Shown in pieces: positions 1 through 22,762 of a stretch of DNA of 52,865 bases. This DNA comes from an uncultured Ruminiclostridium sp. (lineage in GTDB: Bacteria; Bacillota; Clostridia; Oscillospirales; Ruminococcaceae). The notes under the pieces are model-generated. The model was not told where the DNA came from and searched no databases. It saw only the letters and a program-made list of their open reading frames with translations. Position 1 is the first letter of the stretch. Every line of letters begins with the position of its first letter. The position numbers were made by a program, and so were the translations under genes. The stretch lies in the NCBI GenBank assembly GCA_947630685.1, contig CANRII010000003.1:1-52865 (forward strand), in the 5' to 3' direction.

Positions 1-360
1 CCGTAAGTCGCATAGACATGGGTGCCCTCTATCTCGTTTATCAGGAATTTGCCGGTCTTTTCGTCTACTTTACAGTAACGACCTTCATACAGCTTGACCG
101 CCTCGCCGTAAGCGTTCACCGGCAGGCCGTACTCGTTGAGCAGCTCTACCTTGATACCGTTTATGCCGGGATCGTCAGGCTTTCCGTCATAGTCAAGGTC
201 CTGCGTCGCATGATCGAACAGCTTTCTGCTGAATATCGTCTTTTCACCTTCGGGGGTATCAACGGTGACATTTTTAGTGATATATTCGCCCTCGTCGAGC
301 TCGGTATTATAGTTCTCGTCCAGCCAGATATAGCTTCCGATATAGCCTTTATCCGGAGGA
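1..360 (-). other. SdrD-B-like (Cna_B-type) domain within the giant protein
   Basis: Translated motif GYIGSYIWLDENYNTELDEGE ... DYDGKPDDPGINGIKVELLNEYG matches the SdrD B repeat pattern (G-x-x-W-x-D-x-N-x-G/D ... G-I-x-G-I-x-V-x-L). Confidence 0.75.
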
Positions 361-3300
361 GTTACCAATGCTACGCCCGCGGAGGCGGATTTGTTTATTA
401 CCTGACCGTCGGCGGTATCGGCAAAGTTGTTCCAACCGCTGTAATCCTTGACTGCTTCACGCAGATCGGAAGAGGTCATTGTATCTTCATTTACATATGC
501 GGGAGCAGAGGGCAGATTTATCGGAGCGTCCATCTCGTACGTCACCGACAGCTTATGCTGCGGCCGAAGCTCATAACCCTTTTTGGGCTCTACGTACAGC
601 ACCTGGATATTTCTGCGCAGCAGTTCGTAATCGGTGTCGGATAGCTTGCTCTTCATACCGGTAAGCTCGCTGAGCTTTACGTAATTATGAGTGTGCTTCC
701 AATTATCGTTGCCTTGCAGCGGGGTATAGAAACCTGCCTTTTTCGCATCCCAATCGCCGTCCGAAACAGTGGGGACCCTCGGCAGATCTTTAATAGAGTC
801 CATATCCGCTTTTGTGATATTGCCGTTATTATAGTTGAACGGACCTACCCAAATATTAACGTCTGTGCCGTCGACAAGCACTTTTTCTTCACCGTCGCCC
901 GTATCTTTGACCTTTACGCTTTCCGGTCTTAAATAACCGCGCCAGGTCGAACCTTTATCCGTGCCTCTCTTGCCGGTGTCGGTTATATTATCGTCGTCGT
1001 CGTACGGAAGCACATCGTATATGATAGGATTAGTGAATACGTTACTTCTCGACGAATTCGACAGCGCAGATTCAAAGCCGTATACCGTACCCTCCGGTAC
1101 CAGCGACGGGCTGTTGTTGTCTTTTCCTCCCTCTGTACGGCCGTTTCCGTATTCCGAGAACGACAGCTTGCTGTCTTTCATCTGTGCGGATTCTTCAAAG
1201 GTTATACCGCCTACCGTATGCACAATGGTGATCTCACTGTTTGCCATGCCGTTGTCGTTGATATCACGCGTATCGGGAACGTAAGCGTGTACCGAATCCG
1301 ACTCCTCGCTCGGCAGATACGGAGAGAAAGAGCCTTTCTTAAAGCCGTAGCCCTTTGTATTGAGCAGCGCGCTGTTGCCTATCACTCCGGAGGTCCTTAT
1401 AGGCAGCATATATTCAACTACCAGCTTCTGCCCCGGCTTAAGAGTACCCTTGAAGCTCCAGTTCAGCACCTTTAATTCCACGGTGCTGCTGGTAGTTACC
1501 TCGGTCGGCTTGTTATAGGATCTGAATCCGTCAAACGTCAGTTCCGTTTCTTCTACCCTGTTTCCGTCCGAGTCTATGACATACCAAGCCCATTGCATGT
1601 CTTTAAGACTGAAGCTTGATTCTCCGACAAGCTTTCTTGTATAATCTTTATGCAGGAAAGACTCTTCATAATTATCGGAAACATTTGTGAAAAAGTCCTC
1701 GCTGGTATTCAAATTCTGGATATACGGCAACACCACCGAAATTCCCGGATCGGTCGTATTATCCGCTTCCTTATTTTGGAGCCCGACGTTACCCTCTTCT
1801 ATCGCCCTTTCTATATCAGCCTGGGTGAAATTGTGCATGGTCACGCTGTATTTAAGGGTCGGAATGCCGTCGGACGACTTTATGGTAATGTTATCTTTCC
1901 AGCCTCTTTCGGTATCGTTTATCGCGGAGAAGTTCCAGCTGTTTACGTCTATCGCCAAAACCGGGTTCTGGCTGCTGACATAATAGCCCGCGCGCGCCGT
2001 ATCAGCGGAGATAACGCCGCTGTTTTCATCTTCATAGTCGCTGTATTGCGAGTGTACCGACGCAAAATGATTTACATGCAGCTTATCCGGCGCGGTATTG
2101 GTCCTGGTAAGCGCGACAAACGCCGCGTTGCCGCCCGGCTTGCTTACAGTCATATTATCGATGTTGGGCGCAAACTCCGCTTCCGTAGTAACGCTGTCGG
2201 GCAGCGGACGATCTACATTGTGACGGTTGGGGTCCGCCTCGTCCATTTCAACGTCGCTTTCGCGGTCTTCTAATGCTTTATATCCGTTATATCCATCGGC
2301 GTCGATATCCAGCCTGAAACCGCTCGGTACAAGCAGCAGCTCGCCGTCTTTGCCTTTTTCCTCCGCCTCGACGACATACCTAACCTGGTATATGGTCGCG
2401 CGAAGTCTGCCGTCATTTATCGCGATAAAGTGATTTTTGTCTATACTGAATCCGTCTTTAGGCGAAAGCTCTATCCATACCGGAGTTTCGCCGATATTGC
2501 CGGTAATATCATCAATAGTGACGTCGCCGTCGTCGTTTTCCGAAATGATCGCGGTAACGTCGCCGGGCTCGATTTTTTCTCCGCTGTAGTATTCCGGCTC
2601 CAGCAATTCGTTTTCGCCGCCCGGCATTTCGGCGCATTGAACGTATACCCGCAGCTTTAGCTTTTCTTTAAGCTCGGCTATCGTTTCTTCACCAAGGTAA
2701 GAGGGCAGCTCCCACAGACCCGAAGCTATACCGAGTACGGAACCGGGCGTGGGTTTATCTGTAGGCTTTGCGGGATTCAGCGTTGCGCCGCTTGTTCCGC
2801 GGTAAGGTATACGGTAATCTATGGTAAAGGATCTTACCGCGCCGCCGGTATTTACCGCCTGGTCGATGTACATTAACATCTGCTTTGCGCCCTTTACGGA
2901 AACGTCGTCCACTATCTTATAGTCGTCGCCTATATCGGGGTTCACCATTTCCACTCTCGGCTCGGAGGTGTCCACGCGGATACTTGCCGCCGGCTTTAAC
3001 AGCAATACCTTAGCGGTCTTATCCGACGCGTAAATATCGGTATGATCCCCGTCGTCGCCGTAATTAGCGGGATAAATGTATTCAACATTGGTATCATCAT
3101 AGGATACCGTGCCTTTAAGCTCGCCGTCAAGATATTTGCCGTCGGTATCATCCAGCGTTACATAAGTGTCGGCATGGTAATCTCCGTCCCAAACCTTATC
3201 GCCGCCCAGTACAGGGTCTGTGCCGTCGGGAGCCTCCGCACGGTCGATACGCGCGGGTATCCCCACTACCATAACGTCGCCGTTGCCGAAATAGCCCGGC

Positions 3301-6300
3301 AGCTTTTTACCATCTACGAAATCCTGATACTTGGTGATTTGATCGCCCGGAGTGGTTATAGTAAGCTTGACCGTTTCGGTAAGGTCGACTTTGTTTTCCT
3401 TACGCTCTATCTGTACGTCAAAGCCTAATTTTTCCAGCGCGTCCTTAGTTATCCGTATAGGCTCGCCCTCGCTGCCCGCGCGCTTATACAGCAGATAGAA
3501 ATCGCCCTTAACTGCATTATAAGTAACGATTTTCGGCAGCACGAAAGTGACGACTATTTTCGCGTGTGTAACGTCGCCCTGCTGCTCGTATTTTATTAAT
3601 TCTTTAGTATCGCGGACGTTATCGCTGTACTTGTTGTATATCTCGGAGTAATAGTACAGAGTATCCCCGTACTGTACAGACTGTATTCCCTCGACGGTAT
3701 CGTTCGTCTTATCTGTTTTGTCGGTATTTGTATGGTAGTACCGCAAATCCTCTTTGCTGTCCGCGCCCTTATCCTGAGTGTAGCCGCGTCCGCCGAGCCA
3801 GCCGTAATCGCCGAGCCAAGTGCCCGAGCTTGCAAACTTGCTGTCGGTATAATTTGCGGTAGCCTCGTTTACGCTGACAAAGCTGTCGTTTTTAACGCTC
3901 GGGGATTTTATTCTTATACGGTTAGTGGTATATACGCCGGAATCGATGTTGTCGTTTGTAACCTTTTCGCCGTTCAGATTTACGTCTACATGATCGAGGA
4001 TCTCGTCGCCCTGCCAGCTTTCGAGTATTACCTCAGCGCCGGTCTCGTGGTCGCCGTCAGCAACGCCTTCTTCCTCCCAGTAGCGCACATCGCCGCCCTG
4101 CTTACTTTTACTGTCTGCCGCTATATCCGCGGCGTCGATAAGGCTGTAGGTGCGCTCCTTGCCGTTTATCGTCACGCTCCTCTGAATATCGGGGATATTG
4201 CCTATCCTGTCTTCGCGCTGATCATTGATCGGGTTGCCTGCGGTAACGTATGCGGTTTGACCGTATGAGGTCTGCGGCTTATTGCCTACCCAGTACGGGT
4301 TGTCGGCAGCGGCGTCCTTTACCTCGCTGTCGATGATGAATTTGAAGTTTTCCAGCCTGCTGGAAACAAAGGTGTGGTTCTGCTCGTACTGTAACAGCTC
4401 GTCTTCTGTACCCTCGGGCTGGCACTCGGTAAAGAACTTGAACGAGAAGGTCATACTCTCGCCGGACTTAAGCGTTGCCTTGTTCTCATTACGCAAGGTG
4501 ATGTCTTTTGCAAAGAATGTTATCTTAAATCTTTTAAGCTCTTTAAGATACTCTACCTTGTAATCATAAAGCTCCTTAACGCCTTTTGCAAGCTTCCAGT
4601 CAAGCACCTTGTCGACATTCTCGCTGTCGGTTTTTGAGAACAGCGTGCCGTCTACAGCTTTTGGCACGATACCGTAAGGCAGTATATCGGTAACAACGGG
4701 ATAATACAGCGTACCCATGTTTCCGCCGTCGGTGGAATAGGTATGCTCCCACTTGTAATATTTGTTGACCGGAGTACTATTCGGCGTCTTGCCGTCTGAG
4801 TTGTAATTTTGCTCGTGGTTGGGGATATACTTCTGCAAATAGTATTGGTTTTCTACATGGATATTAAGCTCCGAAGTATCTCCGTCGGAGTTTAGATAAT
4901 ACTTATACGGGTCGATCGTATTGTTTTCATCGCCGACCGTAGTCCAGGTACGCAGGAACGGCTTGCGGATATGCGCGCGTGTTCCGGTGGAGGCGTAGGT
5001 GCTGCGAGAACCGTTGCTAAAGCTGTTCTTCGTTTGCATATCTTTATCTTCGGCGGTGGTATAGCAATCGTACATTTCGCGGTTGCCGATATTCATACCG
5101 TTTATATACGGCATGTTCGGCGAACCGTTTACATAACGCGTGAAGAACTGATGATTCTGAGGAACGCTGTTTCTCGTGTCGTCGATATCATTCGTATGAA
5201 GATAACCGTTGTAGATAAAGTCCATTCCGGCGTACTGCGTACTGATGTTTGCGCCGTATGAATCTGTCCTTGCTTCGTTTTTGCAGCTGCCGACGTCTAA
5301 GAGAGTGGCGTCGGTATAGTTGGAGATGTTATTCTCAACAGCATAGTTATAGGTGTTGCCCCAATGGCTGCTTATATCGTATATCTGGTAGTAAAGCTCC
5401 TTTGACGGCTCGGCGGGACGTACCAGCACCTGATCGTACATATACTCGTCGTCCGGCGTTTTATATACGCGCGATGGGATATCCACCAGCATTATATAAC
5501 CGTTGTCGGCTTTCCTGCCAAACCACTTTTTAAGCGGACTTTTTACCGTTATCTTAAGCACCCAAGACGCTTCTTCGGCGTTATAGCCCTGATAAGCATC
5601 AGACTTATCATAGATGTTGCCATAGCTGTCGTCGGTCTTATTCATGTTGGACTTACTAAGCTCCGGATCAAGCATCATATCCGGCGTTTGATATTTTCTG
5701 TCCGTATCGCCGGGCGCCTGCAATATTTCAACCTCTATATCGGCGGTCACAGACTTAAGATCCATATTATTTGAAGGTCCGTTGTTGGTTTTTACCGTGA
5801 TACCGTTTGCTATTTTCGCGGCAAGCTCAGATTTTTTATCTGAAGAGATAACGCCGTCGTATTCTTCGGTAAACGCCGAGGGTTCTACTCCCTCCGGCAT
5901 GATATAGGTAAACTCTATGCCGTTTTCTATATCCCAGTCGCCGTAGTTATATGCGCCGAGCCTTGTGGTAAACTCCTGATAATACTCAAGCGTTGTTATG
6001 CTGTCGTCGTTAAACAGCCGCATACGCTGGTTATAGTCGCGGTAGTCGTAAGTCTGGTTGTCGGTGTTGGTCAGATAATTGTAATCGACGTCATACCTGT
6101 TATTGTAATAGTTGGTAGGCAGGTACTCTTTTCCTGCGGCAGCGCTGTTTTCGCCGATAAGCTGAGAGCTTCCCGCAAGCCATGCGGTCTGCAAATGCAC
6201 TCTCGCCTGCGCCCAGATAAGCGGAGCTTCATGCCCGTCGCTCCAGTCGTCTACGCTGTTCTCGCGCAGCTTCATTAAAAGCGCATAATAATCCCTATCG

Positions 6301-9300
6301 TCTTGGCTTTCCTTAGCCAAAGCATAGTGACGGTTATCCGGCGTGGGCAGCTTGTTATAATCCGCCTCGGTATCTGCAACAGGCTTATAATAGGTCGCCT
6401 GCTGATTATTTCCGGAATTCATATCGTAATCGTCAAGGCGGTTATTATTGCCGTTGCCGTTCTTTGTTGAGCTTGCCTCGCCCTTGCCGTTTGTGCTGGC
6501 GTTTGAATCGCCGCTGCCCGGCATATATACCTCTGCGTCTTTGAGATACTGATATTTGTCGATGTTGGGGTTTATATCGCCGCTTACCGCAACGTCATGG
6601 TACAGATAGTTCATGTCCATGAGATTATTGGCGTTTGCAAACTGCTTTGTATATCCGGTGTAAGTTACATATTTATCGCCGTGATTCCAGCCGATACCGC
6701 CGACATAAGGATAAGAAGCGGTGTCATAATAACCGCCCGCCGCGGTCTGATAATACTCGCCCATCTTGGGGTAGTAATCGACGTAAACGCTGTCGCCTTT
6801 TATATCACTTGAGCCGTTGCGTTTTGTGTACGCCAAGGGCAGGTCATTTTCCCTTGCGATGACCTTGTACTGTATTTCTATACGCTCTCCCGGTTCAAGC
6901 GCCACATCCTCAAACGCTATCTTGTAAACGCTGAATGTACGCTCGGTATTTTCTACATTAGTGCTATCAAGCACGATATCGGCAAACTGCGGGTTTGACG
7001 CCATGCTGTAGCCGTCTTTGTCGTCCTTGGTGACTATCATATCGCCGCCGTAATCGGGAGCGGTATAATCCTTTTTGGTTATCTTGTATTTTATATCCGA
7101 CTTCGGATTGCCGCTTACGTCATACCATACTATGCTGAAATCGCCGGTGCAGCCATTATCCACCGTGGCGCTTTCGGTCTCGGTGATCTCGGCGGTTTGG
7201 ATATACTCTGGTATCTTATCGAATATCACCGGGTTTAATAATCTTCCCTGAAGATCCTTTCCGGTAGTGGTGGCGGGGTTGTTGTTCTTTACCGTGGTCT
7301 TGAACCACATGGTATCGCCGGGACGGTACCCGAGCTTCTGCGTGGCTTTCGGGTCATATACTGTTTTAGCCTCGCTGTCCTTATCGAATATCTGCGTATG
7401 CAGAGTAAGCATCGGCCGCTCGCGCAGGATATCTTCGTCGGTCTTGCCGCTGCCCTCAAGCTCGGTCTTTCCGGTGAATATTTCGGATTTATCGCCCTCC
7501 ACACCGGAAACGGTATTCGTAACGTTTTCGGTATGCTCATGGTAAAATACGACATTAGCGTCCAGCTGCATATTATAGGTGTCTTTGGACTCAACGTTTG
7601 TCGCAGCTCCCGCAGCCTTACGGACGTCGCGGTATCTGCCCACGCCGGTAAGCTCAAACGGCTGCTTTGCCGTTATCTCGGTGACGCTGCCGCTATCATA
7701 GGCGGGCACATCGTAAAACGTCCACCTTACGCCTATCGCGTTGCGGATATAGTAAGGATTGTTCGGGTCGGTGGTGCTTATTTCTCCTTCTTCTTTCCAT
7801 TCCGTCTTATATCCGGAGGAATAAATACCCTCGTCGGTAAAGCTCGAATCGGCTGTCATGAACAGATACCATACGGTGGCTTTTTCGTCCTTAGTCGGAT
7901 GCTTAAAATCTACCGGCTCGGTAAGATCAAAGTCCTTTAAGAAATTACCGTATGTGTCCTTATGACCGAAGTTTACGGTATAGGTGACGGAATCCATGTT
8001 GTGCCGCGCGTCGTTATATATTTTTTTGCTTGACGTTTTGCCGTCCTTTTCCTTGAGGGTGATAGTCATTTCCTGACCATCATATTGATCGGTATTATCG
8101 ACGTATGCGTAATCTATATCAAGGTCATGGCTGTTATAGAAGCTCATTTCATTGTAAATACGGGATATATATGTATTCTCTTTGGTGCTGCCGTAGAATG
8201 CCGATGTGCCGGTGACCTTGCCCCTGAGGAAATGTATCGCCTGATTATCGTATTTGGTATACTCGGTATCTAATTTATAGCTTAGAATCTTGTTGTAAGC
8301 TCTTGTATCGCCGGTGCCGTCGGTACGGTATATCTCATACTGGGAATAGGTATGGGTATGGCGCGCCGCCGCCTCATATCTCGGGTATTGTGACCAGTTA
8401 GAGCCGGAAGCATTCATTATCTTGCTGCCCTCTGTCAGATCACCCTCCGGTATCAGCTGGGTCTTTACCCTAATAACTATTCCTGTGCCGGGCTTTACCG
8501 TCCATTGAGAGTCATCGATAACGTCTTTTCCTGCCAGCGTATCCGGCAGTTCGCCTACCGAGATATCAAGGACTTTATAATTGGTGTCGTTGTCGTCCGC
8601 ATCGAAGTAATATTCCTTACCGGAGAGCAGAATATCCTCGCCTGATCTTGCGGTGATATTGCTGCTTGATATTCCGGTACCGTTGCTTTCGATCGTCCAG
8701 CCGATTATACGCTGACCGTTCGGCGCGGTAAATCTGATATCCGGATGATAAAGCGGGAGCAGAGTATTTTTAGCGTTATCGCCCGCGTTGAGCGTCAGCT
8801 TATACTCGACGTAATCGTAAGGCATAAGGTGGCTTATATCTACGTTAAGCTCATCGTTTTCGCCGCCCTCGGTTTTAGCGTCCATATCAAACGCAAAGGT
8901 ATCATTATTTTCCCCCGCGCCGACGATGTCCATATCTACCTTCATCTCGGCAACGCGGTTGCGCAGATGTACATCCTCGACGGTATCGGACGTCATCGCA
9001 GTAAACTTGCCCGCGTTAAGGTCCGCGGCGGTGACGGTGTTTAGCGTCGGAGTGTCGATGGTGTTGCGGAGGTAATAGCTGGTGTTGTAATAATTGGTAA
9101 CATAGTTGGTAAGGTCAGGGCTGATAGACGACGGCCTGGAATCTATCGTCCATGCGTCTTTTTCTATATCCTCCCTGGTGCGGTCTACAAATATGCCGTC
9201 GTAATAGTACGCGTGACCCTCCGGCATTTTAACGTCTACCTCAAGATTACCGTCCGCGTCATGCGGCAGCTGATCGTTTTCGTCCATAACTATGCCCGAA

Positions 9301-12300
9301 TAATCCGGCTGGGCGGGAGTAAGCCATTGTCCGCCGTCTAAAACGCTTTCATTGGGGACAAACATCTTGTTTTCCCTTAACGGTTTTACGGCGTTAAAGG
9401 ATATTACAAAGCTCTTTACAAATTCTTTATAATAAACCGCTTCGGTATTGTCGGTGGTGTAGGTCGCAAGCTCTCCGAGATTATCTTTAAGAAAATCATT
9501 TACATTAAACGCATAATATTCCTCGTCTTCCGTCAGCTTGAAATATTTGCTGTATTCTCCCTCTTTGAGCTCGGAGAGAGTGAAGCTCTGCGGGGTGTTG
9601 TTTTTGCCGTAATTAAGCGTTATCTCTGTGAGATTGAACCATGTACCCTCTACAAAATCTCTAGGCACATAGATATTTTTCAATCGATAATAGTCGTTAA
9701 GCGTATTAGTAACCTTAACGCCGCTTACATGCGTGGACACGCCCGAACCGTCCAGCGCGCCGGAGCTGTCCTTTACGGTGTTTACGTCGGGACGGTTTTG
9801 TATAGACACCTTGTAAGCCGTGACGCTCGGGTCAAGGTTGTTTATCTGATAATCGTATACTTCGCTGTTAACATCCGCGTTTACATCGTCGCTCTTCTCG
9901 TTGTACTTTTCGAGCTTTACGCCAAGCTGATACGGCAGGCGGTAACCCATATACCTCGCGGTATCGGTCACGGTCTTGTACGCGTCGGTCTTGTCCTCCA
10001 TGAACGACTTGGATTCCATGGTGTTAGTGGCGTTTTTCTTCTCGGTATCGTTGTCCTCGTATATTATGTATACGTCGCCCGCAACATATATATCTCTATC
10101 GGAGCTGCTGTTACCGAAATCGGTGGGCTTGGGCATATTTGTCTGGTTAAGCTCGGAAGCGGATTCGCAGTTGCCGGGCAGATCGGACATATAAATTTTG
10201 TAGCTTTGCAGGAATTTATTTTCGGGCAGCACGAGAGCACCGTCGGGCTTTTTCTCGTCCTCGGTGTAAGCTATAATTATTTCGTAGTAGTCCTCTTTGC
10301 CCTCCTCGCTGCTGAGCTTAAGCTCTTTAATATTATCTTTATCTATAGTGATAACATCGCCGACAGGTTCAAGCTCGGAGATCGAAGTCAATGCGATACT
10401 GCCCGGCTCGGGATCGGGATCGGGCTCCGGTTCGGAGGATCCCGATATTTTACAGTTAGCGAAATTACCGGCGCATACATCGCAGTCTTTATTGTAGGAT
10501 TCCGCAGAGCAGCGTTTTTCACCGGTGCAGGTGCATTCCGGCGGCTTATCGTACTTAAGCTGAAGCTCTATCTTATCAATATAATCATACAGAGCCTTGG
10601 AAATGTATATCTTTCTGGTCAAAAAGCCGTGATACTTCGTTGCGGCGTCGTATTCGATAAGCGGCAGCGTATCGGTAAGCTCCACCGTATCGGTGTAGCC
10701 GTGCTTACCCGTCCAGTCCATAGCATTTTCGTAATGCCAGTTGTTCTTTAATGAGTCTGTAGCCGGATATGTGTCTGTACTATTATAATCGCTGTTACGC
10801 ATACTTTGCTGATAGAACGCCACGGCATATTCATAGCTTTCACCGAAGATGACGTTGTCGTTTGCGTCCGTACCGGATTTTAATGTCCATGTGCCTTTGG
10901 AATTTTTAACGCCCTTAAGTATATTGTTGTATTCGGGATAAACATAGACATATGCGTTAGATACCAGATGCCTTGCATCGTAAACATCAGTAGCCTTATC
11001 GCCCCAATACCAAGAGGTATAGAAAAAGTATTTATCCCAGTACGACCATGAGGATACCGGAGTAGGAGTAGGTGTTCCGCTCTCATCTTCGGGCACGGTC
11101 TGTCCAAACTGTTTTCTTACCTTTGCTTTTGCGCCGTCTCTTTCGGTGTAGCCGGTCACGCATTTATCGCCTACGACAAGGTCAGCGCCGACCGTCGCAT
11201 GGCAATCGCCCTCGTTATAAAACCGTCCGGTGACCTCGAACATAAACTTGGTAGTCTGGTCGTCAGCTTTATACCATGTGCCGTAATCGGGATCAAGCGC
11301 TTTGCCGTCCTTTGCGGCTGCCTTGTTTATATCAAGGTTTATTATTATCTTCGCTATCTGCTGTTGGCTCTTAAGTGCTTCAGAGTAATTTTTAGCGGGC
11401 TGACGATAGTAAAGCTCGTTTTTCTCATCTGCGGGAACGGTTTTGTATCTGTCACCGTCCTTATCTTCATCGTTAAGATTGCCGAGCAGATTTATTCTGA
11501 AGAATTTGTTGTCCCCGTCGCCTTCAACAGAATTATTCTGCCACTCGGATTTATATATCTTATATTCCTTGCCGTCTTTGGTAACAACGGTTATATAGTT
11601 GAAATAATCCTTTGCCCTCGGGTCTACCTTAAGGTAATATGCGTCAAAATTATCGGTAGGCAGAGTGACGGTCATATTGACGTTTGCCGCGGTATTGAAC
11701 GACCGTGACGTAACATAGTTCAAGCTCTGATGTTCCTGAGAGTCCATATTTCCTTTGACCGCAGGGTACGCAATTGGCAAGGTGGCGCCGTATTGCAAAT
11801 ATTGGCGGAAATCCACCATAAACGAGCCTATAGACTTATATCCGATGTCAAGCTCCGAATTGTCGTTAAATGGACCGTTATTGGTAGTTTTCCAGTATCT
11901 TGCTACATGCTCAAGAGAGGTGGAAACCTTATCAAAACGGCCGGATGTTGAGCCGGCGTCACGGTAGCCCGCCACTATCACGGTATCGAAATACATCTTG
12001 CTGACGGTCATCTGCGCCGAGTCGTTTCTATTTATCGTGTAAGTGTCGGCATGAAGCCCGTCAAGGTAGTTATTGCCCTGCACGGTGAGATATCTGTTTT
12101 CGCCGAAATTGCTGTCCGCAAAGCCGTAAAACTCCACCCAGCCGGTGTACGCCTCTTCTTCGGTAACATCCGATTTTTCGCCGGTGTATATCTCGAATTT
12201 TTCGCCCTCAAAAGCTATCCTGCCGAGATTATCTATGCCAAGCTCGATAAGGTCTTTTTCCTCTATGGTAAACAGACCCTTTTCGGCGGTAAACGTTTTG

Positions 12301-15300
12301 TCGCCTGCAGTAAGCGTTCCCGCGTCCTTATCGTAGGTAAACGCAACGCCGCCGTCCATGTCGTCGATATCATAGAATACCACCGACAACACTTTTTCAA
12401 ACTTATCCAAAAGACCCTTATTCAGCACCAGCTTTGTGGTGTGGAATCCGGTGTGCGCCTCGTCGCCTTTAGTGCTGTCGTTTATCGGCAGGTTTATTAT
12501 AAGCTCGCCGTCGTCCAGCACCGATTTTCCACGGTTTACCGCGGTAATGCGGAAATTAAGATCACGGTCGTACGGCACCGCAAACGCGTTTCTGTTCGCG
12601 TCGCTGAGCGTGCTGTCTTTCTGATCTTCACCCTTTTTTCCATAATAGTATATATCCGCCTCTATGCTGAGCGCGGGCTTTTCTACCTTAAGCAGGTTTT
12701 TAAGGGTGAGCTCGCGGCTCTTCATGGATTCGTTGTCCGGGGTGACGGTCATGTTGGCGTACAGATCGCCGTACCCGTCGGAATTACCGGTAAGCTCCAC
12801 CTTGAGCGATTCCTTGCCGTCAACGACAGACTGACCCCTGTAATCCGAGCAGCGGATAACTATGTATTTCAGCTTTTCAATGTCGGTATAGTCGGAAACC
12901 GTGATGGTTATATTGCCGTCCTCGTCCGCTTTGAATGTTACGGGAGTGCCTGTAACGTCCTCGCCCGGCGCGGCGCTGTCCCAGTCATATAAAGTTATGC
13001 TTTCTATATCGGCTATGCCGGAATTGGTAATGGTTATAGTTTTAGTATCAAATCCGGTTATCTTGGTCTTTTCCCCGTCGGTAAGCTGCTCAATACCCGG
13101 CAAAGCGATAAGGATATCAGCCGAACCCATCGGCGCTAACGACTTATTGAGCACCTCGAAATAGTAGCCGGTATCGTCCAGCTTATTAGGCACGGTAAGA
13201 GAATATTCATTGGGCTGCCTATTTCCGCTGCTTATTGTGTTTTCCGATGAGGTTTCTTCGGGATCGGGATTTTTATTAAAGCTGTGTCCGGTGATATGCA
13301 GGTCGATGGTAGTGACGTACATCTTTGCCGAATCTTCGGCGCTGTCGTTAAATTCATTATTGGAATAATCGGTCTTGAAAACGCCTTTAGGGCTGAACGG
13401 AACGGATATGGGATTCTTTTCGTTCTGTCCTCCGGTGACATAGTTCGGCTTACCGTCGAATGCAACGTAAACTTCCTCGGAGATCGGAGTTTTCTTTTCA
13501 AAGGTAGCGAATTTAATATCCGCGCTGAGCAGGTTCTTTCCTTTCCACTTATCTATAGTGTTGGGGAGATATACGCTGCCGTCCTCGCCTTCTACCAGCA
13601 GGTTTTGAAGCTCCGAACCTTTAAGCGTAACGGGAGTTCTTGTATTGTCTTTCGCCGGGAAGTACAGAGTTATCTCGCTTATGTTCTGTTGGCCGTCTAT
13701 CTTTTCCAGCAGCCCTTTTGAGAAGATTATCTTTTCCGTGATAAGGCCGTATTTCAATACGTTTTCCGTGCCGCGCTTGTTAAGAAGATCGCCGGAGCTG
13801 AACACGCCGGGGATAAGGTCGGATATTTCGGACTGGTTTCCGAGCTTATATCTGAATCCGGAATCAGGCATATTTATCGGCACGTCAAGCGCATTTGCGT
13901 ACAATGTACCGCCGTTCACGGTATCGGGAGTATATGCCTCCACTTCTATCAGCGGATCTGCGGGCTCGGTCTCTATGGTCGCTTGCTCTTGCTCAAGGTA
14001 TACCTGAAATTCTCTGTATGTTTCGGCATCCTCGTGCGCCGACTTAGGCACCCATATCTTATGGACATACTGAGTGACAAGCTCGTTGGGATATACGTCG
14101 CCGTCCGGCGCGATACCGTTTATCTCTATCCTGCCGTGCAGCTTTTCTCCCGGCAGTATCTTCTCTTTGAAATGTATGCGGAATTTACCCGTGAACCTTG
14201 CGCCCGGGTTTGAACTGATATATCCGTCTATAAGCGTGTCGACGTCGGTTATAGACCAGGCGGTCTCATAGCTCTTGAGCCCTTCGGTGACGCCGCCGTC
14301 CGTTACCGTTCCGAGCGGTACAAATTCGGACTTGCCGGCGGATTCAAATTGAAATTCTACGGTGTTCTCTTTTCTGAACCAGTCGGTGAACTCAAAGGCT
14401 TCAGCCTCCTCGCCGTCAAGGGGTTCTTCGCCCATGATAAAGGATATGCGCTTAAGCAAAAACTCCGTATCGGAATCCGTCCCGTCCTGGTCAAGGCTGT
14501 CCTCCGCATAAGCGTCGAACAAAGGTATATTGCCCTTGTTCTCAAAATCACCGAGGAAGTAGCTGCCCTCTCCGCGGATAGCCACCGTTTTTTTATCGCT
14601 GATAGTCTCCACGCCGTCGATATCTTCATAGACAAATTTTTTGTGGGAGAATTTATCCACGGCTTTATAGATATTTTCGGGGAAGTTGTATTGCTTCGTC
14701 CAGGTGTAGTTGCCGTCGCCGAAATAAACCGTATCATAAGATTTAGGCACCTGGAAAACCTGGTATTCTCCGAAAGAGTCTTTGCGTTCGGGAGTAACCG
14801 TGATATTTGTGGTATAAGGCACGGCAAATATGTACGTGCGGGAATTTATCTTTGTGGCTGTTTCGCTGTTGTCCGCTTGTATCGGCGTATCGCTGCAGCC
14901 CAGAGTTATCTGACGGTTAGTGTCGATAGTGTAAGGAAGCGTCGGCTGAGTTACATTGCTGAAGCTGACAAGATCCCAGTTTTCGAGATCTTCTTCGCTT
15001 ACATCGGTGACGTCATATATCAATACGCCGCCTTCGTTTATCTTTCCTATAAAAGAACCTTCCAAGCTGTGGTAGTTTTGCATAGACGGGTTGGTATTCT
15101 CTACCGCCTTTCCGTCTATATACTGCCATTTAAGCAGGTCTTCATCCAGCACGCCTCCGCCGCTGATGTTGTCGTCTCTTCCGGCGCATTGAGGGATAAC
15201 GCCGAGTGAAAAGCCCTTTATCAAGCTGTCTTTATCCTTTGAGGTGTTTATGATAGTGGCTTTGTATACGGTATAGTTATACTTATCCCAAAGCACGGTA

Positions 15301-15977
15301 TGAGATATTTGCTGAAATTTGACGTCCCATTGAAGATTTGAACAGATAACGAAATATCTCGCCGCGGTATCGTCCTCAAGCGTTACCTCCGGAGCAGGGT
15401 CAAGCGTTTCCGGGTCGCTTACCTCGGAAGCACAGTACGTAGTATAGCCGCCCGCCACCTTAAACTCGCGGGAGGTATTCTGCTGAACACCGCTGTTAAA
15501 GCACAGCTTTAATTCCAACTCGAACGTGGTGCCGTATGGTGCAGTAATTGAACTGCTGCTGATCTTTAATTTTTGTCCGGCGGTGAATGCGTGGTCTGTT
15601 AACTCTGCTGCACCGGAAAGCGTTTCGCCGTTTTCGACCTCAACCACATATAACGACGGATCTACCAGCTTGAGGTACATATCTTTCGGTACTTCGAGCG
15701 TATAAAACGGATTTGACGCGCTTGAGCCCGCCTGAGTCAGACCGGGATTGAGCGTTACGGTAAAGTTGGCGCATTCTCCGTCACCGTGACCGATGAATAC
15801 TAAATTTCCGTTTTCAACACGTCCGCTTGTCGCATTAAGCGATATCGTGGGATCCGATATTGTCGTCGCGTATGCGATAAGTCCCTCCGGCAGTAATGTA
15901 ACGTCGGAGAATAATATAGCAAACCCCAGCACTAACGCCAGCGCTCTGTTAAAACCTTTCATCAGCCGTTCTTTCAT
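1..15977 (-). CDS. Giant secreted/surface protein, partial (C-terminus beyond left edge), SdrD-B-like domain at the visible C-terminal end
   Basis: Start codon at 15977-15975 (MKERLMKGFNRALALVLGFAILFSDVTLLPEGLIAYATT..., signal peptide) preceded by AGAAAGGAAATCTGTT. The frame at the left edge (..KGYIGSYIWLDENYNTELDEGEYITKN..DDPGINGIKVELLNEYG..) has the same phase as the start. No minus ORF ending in this frame appears in the ORF track, which lists ORFs that have a stop; this implies no in-frame stop over 5,325 codons. Several lines were spot-checked for in-frame tta/cta/tca with none found. Confidence 0.9.
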   Translation of the reverse strand, partial: MKERLMKGFNRALALVLGFAILFSDVTLLPEGLIAYATTISDPTISLNATSGRVENGNLVFIGHGDGECANFTVTLNPGLTQAGSSASNPFYTLEVPKDMYLKLVDPSLYVVEVENGETLSGAAELTDHAFTAGQKLKISSSSITAPYGTTFELELKLCFNSGVQQNTSREFKVAGGYTTYCASEVSDPETLDPAPEVTLEDDTAARYFVICSNLQWDVKFQQISHTVLWDKYNYTVYKATIINTSKDKDSLIKGFSLGVIPQCAGRDDNISGGGVLDEDLLKWQYIDGKAVENTNPSMQNYHSLEGSFIGKINEGGVLIYDVTDVSEEDLENWDLVSFSNVTQPTLPYTIDTNRQITLGCSDTPIQADNSETATKINSRTYIFAVPYTTNITVTPERKDSFGEYQVFQVPKSYDTVYFGDGNYTWTKQYNFPENIYKAVDKFSHKKFVYEDIDGVETISDKKTVAIRGEGSYFLGDFENKGNIPLFDAYAEDSLDQDGTDSDTEFLLKRISFIMGEEPLDGEEAEAFEFTDWFRKENTVEFQFESAGKSEFVPLGTVTDGGVTEGLKSYETAWSITDVDTLIDGYISSNPGARFTGKFRIHFKEKILPGEKLHGRIEINGIAPDGDVYPNELVTQYVHKIWVPKSAHEDAETYREFQVYLEQEQATIETEPADPLIEVEAYTPDTVNGGTLYANALDVPINMPDSGFRYKLGNQSEISDLIPGVFSSGDLLNKRGTENVLKYGLITEKIIFSKGLLEKIDGQQNISEITLYFPAKDNTRTPVTLKGSELQNLLVEGEDGSVYLPNTIDKWKGKNLLSADIKFATFEKKTPISEEVYVAFDGKPNYVTGGQNEKNPISVPFSPKGVFKTDYSNNEFNDSAEDSAKMYVTTIDLHITGHSFNKNPDPEETSSENTISSGNRQPNEYSLTVPNKLDDTGYYFEVLNKSLAPMGSADILIALPGIEQLTDGEKTKITGFDTKTITITNSGIADIESITLYDWDSAAPGEDVTGTPVTFKADEDGNITITVSDYTDIEKLKYIVIRCSDYRGQSVVDGKESLKVELTGNSDGYGDLYANMTVTPDNESMKSRELTLKNLLKVEKPALSIEADIYYYGKKGEDQKDSTLSDANRNAFAVPYDRDLNFRITAVNRGKSVLDDGELIINLPINDSTKGDEAHTGFHTTKLVLNKGLLDKFEKVLSVVFYDIDDMDGGVAFTYDKDAGTLTAGDKTFTAEKGLFTIEEKDLIELGIDNLGRIAFEGEKFEIYTGEKSDVTEEEAYTGWVEFYGFADSNFGENRYLTVQGNNYLDGLHADTYTINRNDSAQMTVSKMYFDTVIVAGYRDAGSTSGRFDKVSTSLEHVARYWKTTNNGPFNDNSELDIGYKSIGSFMVDFRQYLQYGATLPIAYPAVKGNMDSQEHQSLNYVTSRSFNTAANVNMTVTLPTDNFDAYYLKVDPRAKDYFNYITVVTKDGKEYKIYKSEWQNNSVEGDGDNKFFRINLLGNLNDEDKDGDRYKTVPADEKNELYYRQPAKNYSEALKSQQQIAKIIINLDINKAAAKDGKALDPDYGTWYKADDQTTKFMFEVTGRFYNEGDCHATVGADLVVGDKCVTGYTERDGAKAKVRKQFGQTVPEDESGTPTPTPVSSWSYWDKYFFYTSWYWGDKATDVYDARHLVSNAYVYVYPEYNNILKGVKNSKGTWTLKSGTDANDNVIFGESYEYAVAFYQQSMRNSDYNSTDTYPATDSLKNNWHYENAMDWTGKHGYTDTVELTDTLPLIEYDAATKYHGFLTRKIYISKALYDYIDKIELQLKYDKPPECTCTGEKRCSAESYNKDCDVCAGNFANCKISGSSEPEPDPDPEPGSIALTSISELEPVGDVITIDKDNIKELKLSSEEGKEDYYEIIIAYTEDEKKPDGALVLPENKFLQSYKIYMSDLPGNCESASELNQTNMPKPTDFGNSSSDRDIYVAGDVYIIYEDNDTEKKNATNTMESKSFMEDKTDAYKTVTDTARYMGYRLPYQLGVKLEKYNEKSDDVNADVNSEVYDYQINNLDPSVTAYKVSIQNRPDVNTVKDSSGALDGSGVSTHVSGVKVTNTLNDYYRLKNIYVPRDFVEGTWFNLTEITLNYGKNNTPQSFTLSELKEGEYSKYFKLTEDEEYYAFNVNDFLKDNLGELATYTTDNTEAVYYKEFVKSFVISFNAVKPLRENKMFVPNESVLDGGQWLTPAQPDYSGIVMDENDQLPHDADGNLEVDVKMPEGHAYYYDGIFVDRTREDIEKDAWTIDSRPSSISPDLTNYVTNYYNTSYYLRNTIDTPTLNTVTAADLNAGKFTAMTSDTVEDVHLRNRVAEMKVDMDIVGAGENNDTFAFDMDAKTEGGENDELNVDISHLMPYDYVEYKLTLNAGDNAKNTLLPLYHPDIRFTAPNGQRIIGWTIESNGTGISSSNITARSGEDILLSGKEYYFDADDNDTNYKVLDISVGELPDTLAGKDVIDDSQWTVKPGTGIVIRVKTQLIPEGDLTEGSKIMNASGSNWSQYPRYEAAARHTHTYSQYEIYRTDGTGDTRAYNKILSYKLDTEYTKYDNQAIHFLRGKVTGTSAFYGSTKENTYISRIYNEMSFYNSHDLDIDYAYVDNTDQYDGQEMTITLKEKDGKTSSKKIYNDARHNMDSVTYTVNFGHKDTYGNFLKDFDLTEPVDFKHPTKDEKATVWYLFMTADSSFTDEGIYSSGYKTEWKEEGEISTTDPNNPYYIRNAIGVRWTFYDVPAYDSGSVTEITAKQPFELTGVGRYRDVRKAAGAATNVESKDTYNMQLDANVVFYHEHTENVTNTVSGVEGDKSEIFTGKTELEGSGKTDEDILRERPMLTLHTQIFDKDSEAKTVYDPKATQKLGYRPGDTMWFKTTVKNNNPATTTGKDLQGRLLNPVIFDKIPEYIQTAEITETESATVDNGCTGDFSIVWYDVSGNPKSDIKYKITKKDYTAPDYGGDMIVTKDDKDGYSMASNPQFADIVLDSTNVENTERTFSVYKIAFEDVALEPGERIEIQYKVIARENDLPLAYTKRNGSSDIKGDSVYVDYYPKMGEYYQTAAGGYYDTASYPYVGGIGWNHGDKYVTYTGYTKQFANANNLMDMNYLYHDVAVSGDINPNIDKYQYLKDAEVYMPGSGDSNASTNGKGEASSTKNGNGNNNRLDDYDMNSGNNQQATYYKPVADTEADYNKLPTPDNRHYALAKESQDDRDYYALLMKLRENSVDDWSDGHEAPLIWAQARVHLQTAWLAGSSQLIGENSAAAGKEYLPTNYYNNRYDVDYNYLTNTDNQTYDYRDYNQRMRLFNDDSITTLEYYQEFTTRLGAYNYGDWDIENGIEFTYIMPEGVEPSAFTEEYDGVISSDKKSELAAKIANGITVKTNNGPSNNMDLKSVTADIEVEILQAPGDTDRKYQTPDMMLDPELSKSNMNKTDDSYGNIYDKSDAYQGYNAEEASWVLKITVKSPLKKWFGRKADNGYIMLVDIPSRVYKTPDDEYMYDQVLVRPAEPSKELYYQIYDISSHWGNTYNYAVENNISNYTDATLLDVGSCKNEARTDSYGANISTQYAGMDFIYNGYLHTNDIDDTRNSVPQNHQFFTRYVNGSPNMPYINGMNIGNREMYDCYTTAEDKDMQTKNSFSNGSRSTYASTGTRAHIRKPFLRTWTTVGDENNTIDPYKYYLNSDGDTSELNIHVENQYYLQKYIPNHEQNYNSDGKTPNSTPVNKYYKWEHTYSTDGGNMGTLYYPVVTDILPYGIVPKAVDGTLFSKTDSENVDKVLDWKLAKGVKELYDYKVEYLKELKRFKITFFAKDITLRNENKATLKSGESMTFSFKFFTECQPEGTEDELLQYEQNHTFVSSRLENFKFIIDSEVKDAAADNPYWVGNKPQTSYGQTAYVTAGNPINDQREDRIGNIPDIQRSVTINGKERTYSLIDAADIAADSKSKQGGDVRYWEEEGVADGDHETGAEVILESWQGDEILDHVDVNLNGEKVTNDNIDSGVYTTNRIRIKSPSVKNDSFVSVNEATANYTDSKFASSGTWLGDYGWLGGRGYTQDKGADSKEDLRYYHTNTDKTDKTNDTVEGIQSVQYGDTLYYYSEIYNKYSDNVRDTKELIKYEQQGDVTHAKIVVTFVLPKIVTYNAVKGDFYLLYKRAGSEGEPIRITKDALEKLGFDVQIERKENKVDLTETVKLTITTPGDQITKYQDFVDGKKLPGYFGNGDVMVVGIPARIDRAEAPDGTDPVLGGDKVWDGDYHADTYVTLDDTDGKYLDGELKGTVSYDDTNVEYIYPANYGDDGDHTDIYASDKTAKVLLLKPAASIRVDTSEPRVEMVNPDIGDDYKIVDDVSVKGAKQMLMYIDQAVNTGGAVRSFTIDYRIPYRGTSGATLNPAKPTDKPTPGSVLGIASGLWELPSYLGEETIAELKEKLKLRVYVQCAEMPGGENELLEPEYYSGEKIEPGDVTAIISENDDGDVTIDDITGNIGETPVWIELSPKDGFSIDKNHFIAINDGRLRATIYQVRYVVEAEEKGKDGELLLVPSGFRLDIDADGYNGYKALEDRESDVEMDEADPNRHNVDRPLPDSVTTEAEFAPNIDNMTVSKPGGNAAFVALTRTNTAPDKLHVNHFASVHSQYSDYEDENSGVISADTARAGYYVSSQNPVLAIDVNSWNFSAINDTERGWKDNITIKSSDGIPTLKYSVTMHNFTQADIERAIEEGNVGLQNKEADNTTDPGISVVLPYIQNLNTSEDFFTNVSDNYEESFLHKDYTRKLVGESSFSLKDMQWAWYVIDSDGNRVEETELTFDGFRSYNKPTEVTTSSTVELKVLNWSFKGTLKPGQKLVVEYMLPIRTSGVIGNSALLNTKGYGFKKGSFSPYLPSEESDSVHAYVPDTRDINDNGMANSEITIVHTVGGITFEESAQMKDSKLSFSEYGNGRTEGGKDNNSPSLVPEGTVYGFESALSNSSRSNVFTNPIIYDVLPYDDDDNITDTGKRGTDKGSTWRGYLRPESVKVKDTGDGEEKVLVDGTDVNIWVGPFNYNNGNITKADMDSIKDLPRVPTVSDGDWDAKKAGFYTPLQGNDNWKHTHNYVKLSELTGMKSKLSDTDYELLRRNIQVLYVEPKKGYELRPQHKLSVTYEMDAPINLPSAPAYVNEDTMTSSDLREAVKDYSGWNNFADTADGQVINKSASAGVALVTPPDKGYIGSYIWLDENYNTELDEGEYITKNVTVDTPEGEKTIFSRKLFDHATQDLDYDGKPDDPGINGIKVELLNEYGLPVNAYGEAVKLYEGRYCKVDEKTGKFLINEIEGTHVYATY

Positions 15978-16071
15978 AACAGATTTCCTTTCTGCACCCA
16001 TGCAAGATCCATATTTCAGCTTTCATATACACCCAAAAAGTATACAAATGTATAAAGTCGATAATAGAAAT

Positions 16072-16126
16072 GTAAATTTCAACCCTCGTATATGTTATAC
16101 AACATATATGTTTTGTTGAAATTTAC
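16072..16126. repeat. Nested inverted repeats in the giant-gene leader
   Basis: Perfect 12-bp arms GTAAATTTCAAC (16072-16083) / GTTGAAATTTAC (16115-16126) enclosing 8-bp arms TATATGTT (16089-16096) / AACATATA (16101-16108). Confidence 0.85.
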
Positions 16127-16223
16127 GCCATTCTTGAATTTTACTTTTCCCCTGTAAAATCCCGTAGTTAAGTCGAATAACGGTAATCAGTACATATGTA
16201 CTCGTATACGACCCCATGGTATA

Positions 16224-16252
16224 ATTGTATCATATTTTGCCAAAATTGTCAA
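16224..16252 (-). promoter_or_regulatory. Sigma-A-type promoter of the giant gene: TTGACA-17-TACAAT
   Basis: Minus strand TTGACA (16252-16247), 17-bp spacer, TACAAT (16229-16224); implies a ~240-nt leader. Confidence 0.75.
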
Positions 16253-16294
16253 TACTATTGTACAAAAAGTACAAAAAATTAAATTTTGGGATTT

Positions 16295-16364
16295 GGGGGC
16301 GCTGCCCCCAGACCCCCTTTATGGGGCTCCGCCCCAAACCCCCGCAAGGGGGAATGTTTCCCCC
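16295..16364. repeat. Cluster of G/C-run hairpins
   Basis: GGGGGC-GCT-GCCCCC (16295-16309), TGGGGC-TCC-GCCCCA (16322-16336), CCCCC-GCAA-GGGGG (16339-16352), GGGGGAA-TGT-TTCCCCC (16348-16364). Confidence 0.85.
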
Positions 16365-16769
16365 TTGACCCCCTACATGTTTCCAGATATACCGCTGCAT
16401 ACGAAATACAAGGGATAATCCTTATCCGAATTTATCCACCTCCGCTGATTCCTCCGACAGGACACCCAGGATAGGGGAAAGGCGACCTACGGTTCCTTTC
16501 CCCTACCCTCGGTTTCCTTTCGGACTTTTCTTCCTCACCCGACCCCTATCCGTCCCTTTATTCACGTTATAGGCTCTGTCTATCCGCTACGGTTTATCAG
16601 ATTCCGTCCTGGCTGCAATTTCCCTTTAATTGCGCCCCCTATGAAGGGCACTTGAAACTCTGCAATACAGTACGTCCGAAACGTTGCAGCTTTGCATTTG
16701 GCTGCTTGGCGTAAGCATTATAAAGTTCTTTTATTATCTTGTTATCTTTTTGACCGTGCGCTTTTACCC

Positions 16770-17020: not shown

Positions 17021-17050
17021 AAAAATATCCCTCCCATTTACGGGAGGGAT
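17021..17050 (-). terminator. Rho-independent terminator of the flavodoxin-fold gene
   Basis: ATCCCTCCC/GGGAGGGAT stem (17027-17035/17042-17050) followed on the minus strand by ATTTTTGT. Confidence 0.8.
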
Positions 17051-20597: not shown

Positions 20598-21890
20598 ATG
20601 GATATCTTACGTATCATCACGAGCGTTGCGGGCTGTGCCGCGGAGGTCTATATATATTCGCTGTTTTTCAGTATTTTTACAACGCCGAAAAACGACCGCC
20701 GTCTTAAAATAATATTAAACTGCGCGGCGTTCGTTCTGTTGTCGGTAAACTCGCTGTTTATAGACATATTCCCGCTGAGAGCCGGTATCAGCATACTCGC
20801 CATTATAATAATATCATATTGTAACGACTGCGGACTGCTTAAAAGATCATATACCGCGCTGATAGCCTTTATACTGATGTGCGCCGCGGAAATAATCACC
20901 GGTGCGGCGACCGCCGCGCTGCTCGGTATGAACGTCGGCAGCATAATAGGAACGGATATGACGTATATCATCGACATAGTTATAAGCAAGCTGACGGCCT
21001 TTATCGCGGTAAAGCTGTTCGTCAATGCGAAAAAGCCGCACGGGGAGTTTGACAGCGGCTTTTCGGCGGCGCTGCTGATAATTTTTGTATTGATAATATT
21101 CTATATGGTCTTTATGATAGACGGTATGTTCACGGGGAATGAGCAGAACAACGCTTTCCTGTCGGTGATCGCTATAGTGATAATGGCGGCGGCGGTGATA
21201 TCCGTGTTTATCCTCAACGACCGTCAGATAAAATACAAGGAATACCAAAGGCGGCTCAAAGACCTTGAACTGCAATACAAGCTCAAGGTCAAGGAGTACG
21301 AGAATATCAGGGACAACGCAAGGCTCGCGGGCAAAAATATCCACGACGTAAAAAATTTCTCGCTGGCGATAAACTCTTATCTTGAACAGGGCAAAATAGC
21401 GCAGGCACAGCAAAAGCTGCGGGAGTACACCGAGAAAACGGTCGGCCCCGTCGGACGTTCTTCCGGCATACCGACGGTGGACGCTCTGCTTAAAGCAAAG
21501 CTGGAAGAAATAAACGAGCTTTGCGGCAGCAGATACGTTTCGGTGGTGCTGGACAGCCTCGGCGGGATAGATGAAATAGATTTCTGCATACTGCTCGGCA
21601 ACGCGGCGGATAACGCTATAGAAGAATGTCGCCGCATAGAGGACAAAAAAGACCGCGTAATAGAAATACGCGTTCTACCGATAGCGGGCGGTATCTCGAT
21701 CTTTGTAAAAAACAAGACCTCCGGCAAAGCGAAAAAAGGCGTAAGCTCGAAGGACAACGACCTTTTACACGGCTTCGGCATCGAAAATATGAGGGCGATA
21801 TGCGAAAAATACGGCGGCGATATGATCACCTCGGAGCAGGACGGATATTTTGAGCTCAGCATATTCTTACCGAATATCCAAGCTGATTGA
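20598..21890 (+). CDS. GHKL-domain sensor histidine kinase (AgrC-like)
   Basis: N-terminal multi-TM region, H-box NIHDVKNFSLAINSYLEQGK, N-box LLGNAADNAIEEC, G-box GFGIENMRAICEKYGG; directly follows the LytTR gene. Confidence 0.9.
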   Translation: MDILRIITSVAGCAAEVYIYSLFFSIFTTPKNDRRLKIILNCAAFVLLSVNSLFIDIFPLRAGISILAIIIISYCNDCGLLKRSYTALIAFILMCAAEIITGAATAALLGMNVGSIIGTDMTYIIDIVISKLTAFIAVKLFVNAKKPHGEFDSGFSAALLIIFVLIIFYMVFMIDGMFTGNEQNNAFLSVIAIVIMAAAVISVFILNDRQIKYKEYQRRLKDLELQYKLKVKEYENIRDNARLAGKNIHDVKNFSLAINSYLEQGKIAQAQQKLREYTEKTVGPVGRSSGIPTVDALLKAKLEEINELCGSRYVSVVLDSLGGIDEIDFCILLGNAADNAIEECRRIEDKKDRVIEIRVLPIAGGISIFVKNKTSGKAKKGVSSKDNDLLHGFGIENMRAICEKYGGDMITSEQDGYFELSIFLPNIQAD

Positions 21891-21902
21891 CCGAATATCC
21901 AA
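21869..21902 (+). promoter_or_regulatory. Two 13-bp direct repeats (ACCGAATATCCAA) with 21-bp period; candidate LytTR operator
   Basis: Identical copies at 21869-21881 and 21890-21902, 6 bp upstream of TTGACC (21909-21914). Confidence 0.6.
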
Positions 21903-21908
21903 AACCCC

Positions 21909-21938
21909 TTGACCCTGCCGCTTTGCGTGTGTTATTAT
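21909..21938 (+). promoter_or_regulatory. Putative promoter of the lipoprotein gene: TTGACC-18-TATTAT
   Basis: TTGACC 21909-21914, TATTAT 21933-21938; start codon ATG at 21971 with GGGAGG upstream. Confidence 0.65.
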
Positions 21939-21970
21939 CTTCTTACAAAATTTTGCGGGAGGATAAAACC

Positions 21971-22762
21971 ATGAGATCAAGATCATATTCTCTGCTTGCG
22001 GCGGCGCTTTGCGGCATTATCTGCCTTAATATATGCGCGTGCTCCGAAAGCAAAAACACCGGCGGCTCGGCTGTAAATTCCGAAAGCGGCGTACAGTCAG
22101 CTTCCGACAATAAGACCGAGGAAAGCAGTCAGGAAAGCAGCGCAGAAAGCAATACCGAGGAAAGCAGCGAAGAAAGCAACACCGAGGAAAGCAGCGAAGA
22201 AAGCAAATCCGAAAGTGCGGCAAACGCCGACGATGATCAGTACACCGACCCGTACTCCCCCGCTCCCTTGGGCGAGTGGATAAAGTCGATGGCATACAAT
22301 CCGGAGTCGGAAAAGCAGGAGGTCATTTACTGGCGCATAGTAAATGTAGATCCCGACGCACAAGCATCGGTAGACGCATACAACGACGGCAATAATTTCT
22401 GGATATTAGAGCAGCCGGACGAGGATTTTATCAAATTTTACGAGGTGGATTATGAGATAAAATACCCGGAGGATTACACCGCGTCGGACTTCGGCATAAC
22501 CTCAAGCAGCTTGTCGCTCTCTGCGGAAAAGCCGAACGGAAGAGGCTTTGAAAAGGACGGCACTTTGTATTTAGGAGTAGGCTCCACCACCGACGTTACC
22601 AAGGATACTCTCGGCAAAGCAGAGGGATATCCGCAGCCCGGCGACACCGTAAAATTCCGGTCGGTCTATACCATGATAGAGGGCGAAACCGATTACGTGT
22701 TCTGCCTGGAATACAAAGACCTTAACGACCAGCGCGTAAGCTCATACGCCGCGAGCCATTAA
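21971..22762 (+). CDS. Predicted lipoprotein with Ser/Glu-rich stalk
   Basis: MRSRSYSLLAAALCGIICLNICAC|SES signal peptide/lipobox, then TEESSQESSAESNTEESSEESNTEESSEESKSE; unknown C-terminal domain. The track start at 21887 is an upstream extension. Confidence 0.8.
   Translation: MRSRSYSLLAAALCGIICLNICACSESKNTGGSAVNSESGVQSASDNKTEESSQESSAESNTEESSEESNTEESSEESKSESAANADDDQYTDPYSPAPLGEWIKSMAYNPESEKQEVIYWRIVNVDPDAQASVDAYNDGNNFWILEQPDEDFIKFYEVDYEIKYPEDYTASDFGITSSSLSLSAEKPNGRGFEKDGTLYLGVGSTTDVTKDTLGKAEGYPQPGDTVKFRSVYTMIEGETDYVFCLEYKDLNDQRVSSYAASH
22148..22201 (+). repeat. 27-bp tandem duplication encoding SNTEESSEE x2
   Basis: AGCAAyACCGAGGAAAGCAGCGAAGAA at 22148-22174 and 22175-22201, one mismatch. 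Confidence 0.85.

Follow-up and report, generated by a model that had tools for sequence, protein, structure and literature searches.

What does a gene encode that is so long that its contig ends before its reading frame does, and how far does it continue? The window examined here (the whole stretch of DNA analysed, 52,865 nucleotides) is the entire contig C3 of the genome of an uncultured gut-type bacterium, assembled into 174 contigs (2.25 Mb). On its minus strand, a frame beginning with ATG at position 15977 continues down to window base 3, giving 5,325 codons with zero stops in the translation of the window, as the original prediction had stated. Since contig C3 ends at window base 1, the gene is truncated by the assembly, and it is missing from the ORF track, as had also been noticed, only because default lists skip frames that leave a contig end. 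A chance open frame is ruled out by orthology over the whole length: nine genomes are collinear across about 5,000 residues with 30-49% identity. The frame (3..15977, minus strand), open at the contig edge, thus represents the 5′ part of a giant surface-protein gene with orthologues in eight other genomes.

A further in-frame ATG, at 16001, would lengthen the protein by 8 residues. We prefer the ATG at 15977, judging from the better ribosome site AAAGGAAA just upstream and the signal-peptide-like sequence directly after it. About 240 nt upstream of this start codon lies a strong promoter-like site, TTGACA-17-TACAAT, its second hexamer preceded by TG (16224..16252, minus strand); it agrees with 11 of 12 consensus positions and is a consensus match only. 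The same holds for a terminator-like hairpin (17027..17050, minus strand) that follows the upstream flavodoxin-like gene and suggests that the giant gene has a transcript of its own. AT-rich inverted repeats, e.g. TATATGTTATACAACATATA, occupy window positions 16040-16215, in the interval that separates the start codon from the promoter-like site, and are possibly operator-like. Elsewhere in the window, short tandem repeats at 22117-22212, within the ORF 21887-22762, encode a low-complexity stretch. A GC-rich repeat at 16280-16390, also upstream of the giant gene, has 14 matching places in the genome, itself included; several copies lie no more than about 150 bases from where a contig begins, and the repeat may thus itself break the assembly. 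Gene-internal breaks are no rarity here; rpoB, for one, is likewise split over two contigs.

The missing 3′ end had to be sought beyond the left edge, as the original prediction proposed, and this led both to a sorting signal and to an intact orthologue. A SdrD_B search of the window's own genome found contig C56, whose first base lies within an open frame 1,234 residues long; this frame contains several SdrD_B domains and terminates with NPDTG, a hydrophobic stretch and RNKNKKK. In G009, a genome of the same genus (JAFLRX010000009.1, Eubacterium sp. HAN012), the orthologue is intact, a single frame of 11,643 aa. Residues 1-5,325 from the window align with residues 1-6,234 of this orthologue, the C56 piece aligns with residues ~10,390-11,640, and the gene following the C56 frame is homologous (44% identity) to the gene following the G009 giant. 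Orthology and gene order thus indicate that C3 and C56 are probably the two ends of one gene whose middle piece was left unassembled. Direct joining of C3 to C56 was rejected because neither piece contains the remainder of the first SdrD_B domain, which every inspected relative conserves.

Two separate genes, the one in the window ending soon past the contig edge, would fit the lack of a joining sequence, the absence of overlap between the contigs and the missing stretch. Yet in G009 a single intact gene is matched by the window piece at its beginning and by the C56 piece at its end, each piece is cut by a contig end and oriented as expected, and the partner gene behind C56 is the same as in six relatives. 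Moreover, a search of the own genome with the C56 tail, intended to recover the missing middle, yielded no other contig bearing a second candidate tail, and we regard separate genes as very improbable. With one gene as the preferred reading, and since tails in relatives measure 1,812-5,557 aa, the window protein probably reaches about 7,000-10,700 aa.

To collect relatives, 85,462 species genomes were scanned with two short peptide patterns, which miss distant members; six loci were retrieved, G009 included, and two more, G204 and G249, came from a family-level sample. Besides the window species and G009, seven genomes therefore carry relatives of 6,686-8,301 aa, two of which are cut by contig ends. 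Measured from the chosen start, the open lengths are 11,643 residues in G009, 8,201 in G354, 7,929 in G355, 6,686 in G204, 7,303 in G357 and 7,910 in G358, with 8,301 and 7,715 in the contig-cut G356 and G249. All follow one layout: a collinear head of 4.9-6.1 kaa, a SdrD_B stalk of variable length and, where it is seen, a sortase-type end. Intact relatives of up to 11,643 residues with the same partner gene point to a little-known family of huge, probably adhesive, wall-anchored proteins.

The original prediction also described a surface protein with a signal peptide. Signal-like N-termini can indeed be read from the sequences of the window protein and its relatives, and in the window the putative signal peptide covers approximately residues 1-37 (MKERLMKGFNRALALVLGFAILFSDVTLLPEGLIAYA; 15867..15977, minus strand). 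The conserved head that follows (approximately residues 38-5,210; 348..15866, minus strand) has no family above cut-off in Pfam, NCBIfam or PHROGs. PHROGs yielded only a weak match of unknown function, located in the stalk, and NCBIfam nothing credible; a phage origin is therefore without support. No known adhesive Pfam domain was detected in the window part or in the C56 piece, and searching PDB sequences with two head alignments gave no match. The head is largely non-repetitive, and its best blocks contain 20-28 invariant positions per 150 residues. The extracellular region had been called modular. This is borne out for three degenerate repeats of about 200 aa (residues 664-848, 882-1070 and 1115-1303; 12069..13988, minus strand), the sole internal set revealed by profile self-comparison, but not for the rest of the head, where repeats are not detectable. 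A cysteine-rich stretch at approximately residues 1814-1842 (10452..10538, minus strand) is shared with G009, and a weak PF14283 match below cut-off is found nearby.

The repeats are predicted to adopt a beta-sandwich, Ig-like fold. The AlphaFold2 model of residues 650-1,500, built with nine sequences, has a mean pLDDT of 75.5 and consists mostly of beta strands. Its best Foldseek match is the Ig-like region of the PrgB adhesin (E 5e-13), followed lower down by antigen I/II and ClfB, with integrins also present; given long alignments with low TM-scores, these matches support the domain class, not a binding function or a particular relative. The model of the conserved core (residues 2,840-3,900; pLDDT 45) was too poor to interpret, and its integrin and CBM3 matches were set aside.

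The stalk begins at residue 5,211 with a first SdrD_B-type domain truncated by the contig edge (3..347, minus strand). The proposal of an SdrD-B-like domain at the visible distal end is upheld because it aligns with the domain that opens the stalk in the relatives, the match being weak alone (E 0.0012, below cut-off); in the C56 piece SdrD_B is found in three stretches (E 3.9e-24). Relatives have 5-16 repeat motifs, the number varying between species, and across the family the head extends over 4,875-6,087 residues (5,211 in the window) before the first such domain. Sorting signals are mostly non-canonical: NPDTG on C56, LPKTG in G204, and VNTG, IQTG or PKTS in other relatives. Provided that the C3-C56 link holds, the window gene would have a sorting-signal C-terminus with motif, hydrophobic stretch and positive tail.

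The giant gene is accompanied. In all seven genomes where its 3′ end is assembled, a SBP_bac_5-like gene is found 36-62 nt downstream, encoding a protein of 457-517 residues with an N-terminal hydrophobic segment. G354 alone displays a possible lipobox (VSAC) in this partner, whose anchoring may differ from that of the others. Among 199 genomes of the taxonomic family, the full-length partner type occurs only in the two that bear the giant (633 and 515 bits), and the next-best matches are partial and reach at most 81 bits. The only third gene common to more than two genomes is a sortase, present in G354, G355 and G358 (by Pfam for the first two, by homology for G358), and the window's own genome has three sortases, as PF04203 matches on contig C39. 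Remaining neighbours occupy shared positions only in the closely related G354 and G358. In G354 a gene for a sigma-70-family factor (L037 6165-6947) is divergent and just upstream of the giant, with a matching gene in G358. Downstream of the giant's tail, L003 2547-6832 encodes two adjacent secreted DHHW/AlgX-like proteins, one of them confirmed by Pfam, and a HAD-type protein; this trio is perhaps a surface-glycan acylation set.

Could the partner be a true solute-binding receptor, the giant trapping or tethering food polymers or peptides and the partner catching the solute set free, for a transporter encoded elsewhere? All seven partners match SBP_bac_5 (PF00496; best E 2.1e-30), and the head-core model weakly resembles CBM3 modules of cellulosome scaffoldins. 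However, those CBM3 matches derive from a low-confidence model, the profile is covered only in part in the window species (positions 13-234 of 368), and among annotated neighbours no conserved permease or transporter gene stands beside the pair. We therefore consider a feeding receptor unlikely. Because a conserved transporter gene was not seen among those neighbours and the full-length partner type accompanies the giant, a helper role is favored.

The family is rare: one of 59 other genomes of the genus carries it, two others were found among 299 genomes of the taxonomic family, and the order sample contained only G009. Class and phylum samples gave no convincing giant match, and the match in class member G652 was rejected as chance, a 49-aa frame with a stop. 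Head divergence does not follow rpoB. Identities in rpoB and in the head are respectively 98% vs 49% for G354/G358, 87% vs 44% for G355/G356 and 96% vs 48% for the window species and G009. G357 shares only about 65% rpoB identity with the others, yet its head is 45-46% identical to those of the G354-G358 group; its NCBI label, Candidatus Stoquefichus of the class Erysipelotrichia, fits the distant rpoB, and labels of MAGs can err. The head tree rejects G355 and G356 as sisters (AU p 2.4e-5) and also separation of the window species, G009, G354, G358, G204 and G249 from the rest (p 1.8e-54). Horizontal transfer is the simplest reading of this conflict, and hidden paralogy followed by loss is a possible source. 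For G354 and G358, whose sisterhood the head tree does not reject (p 0.17), DNA identity is 76-79% in the flanks and ~65-68% in the cassette. Replacement of the cassette at one site was considered here; on these identities and the sisterhood result, fast divergence in place is possible. The patchy and apparently transferred distribution suggests a niche-specific advantage.

Great length, divergence as fast as in the G354/G358 heads and patchy spread would also suit a surface antigen under pressure, in which case the giant would serve chiefly as a shield or spacer, forming an armour layer that protects from phages, predators or immune factors, instead of as an adhesin. Such a role seems to us improbable: a collinear head of 5,000 residues, with the density of invariant positions observed in its best blocks, resembles a specific structure, not filler, and the closest bacterial folds are adhesin domains.

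Taken together, our results favour, with a probability of roughly 0.7, the view that these giants form a new family of fibrillar surface proteins that are anchored by sortase and have a membrane partner dedicated to them; adhesion and the role of the partner are inferred. The giant protein would pass through Sec and be fixed to the peptidoglycan by sortase; the SdrD_B stalk would project the beta-domain head well away from the wall, to a position from which it may bind another surface, be it host mucus, food particles or other bacteria. The SBP_bac_5-like membrane protein would serve not a feeding transporter but a single client, the giant, in its export, folding or anchoring. A bolder version, which we put forward tentatively and would not yet favour, is that of a horizontally moving surface cassette of two or three genes, comprising the giant, a dedicated SBP-like export or assembly factor and sometimes its own sortase. 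The SBP fold would there act as a client-specific chaperone, and one architecture of about 5,000 residues would have spread across distant gut Bacillota.

Giant surface proteins are already a known kind (PMC8286594, PMC9210967, PMC12863079, PMC11573180), and huge proteins in general are covered by PMC11573180. In the open-access papers searched, we found no description of the present family or of its pairing with an SBP-like protein. Genes for giant surface proteins are easily lost from fragmented metagenome assemblies, as the one in the window, cut in two, illustrates.

A close parallel is with Gram-positive fibrillar adhesins, which combine a signal peptide, an N-terminal head, a stalk of repeated domains and a C-terminal sortase anchor, the signal peptide and the anchor being predicted ones in the window family, and in which SdrD_B is treated as a stalk domain (PMC8286594, PMC9210967). 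The positive training set of fibrillar adhesins has a mean of 1,196 residues (PMC9210967), whereas the window family measures 6,686-11,643 aa, its head of some 5,000 aa is mostly free of repeats and contains no known adhesive family, and it is associated with a fixed partner gene. Giant1-5 of Apilactobacillus kunkeei are extracellular proteins of 3,000-8,000 aa with long internal repeats, encoded by five consecutive genes, Giant1-4 having an N-terminal beta-solenoid (PMC12863079). They too are extracellular and very large, and for them too, in a gut symbiont belonging to the Bacillota, exchange of sequences between genera has been inferred; unlike in the window family, an SBP partner is not mentioned in the parts of that description consulted (PMC12863079).

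With staphylococcal SdrD-type proteins, the window family shares the SdrD_B (PF17210) stalk only, its head having no above-threshold match in Pfam, NCBIfam or PHROGs. Ebh of Staphylococcus aureus is composed largely of helical modules in repeat, has a membrane segment at its C-terminus and is not known to carry an SdrD_B stalk; by description the window family is set apart from it. Both are giant surface proteins, Ebh being almost 10,000 aa long and reported to bind the host matrix protein fibronectin (PMC11573180). The present family prompts two questions: by what means cells export, fold and anchor chains that can reach 11,600 residues, and whether this task involves an SBP-like protein. It also lends itself to comparison in a way that single giant genes do not, with nine genomes in which the head and the partner stay constant and the stalk varies.
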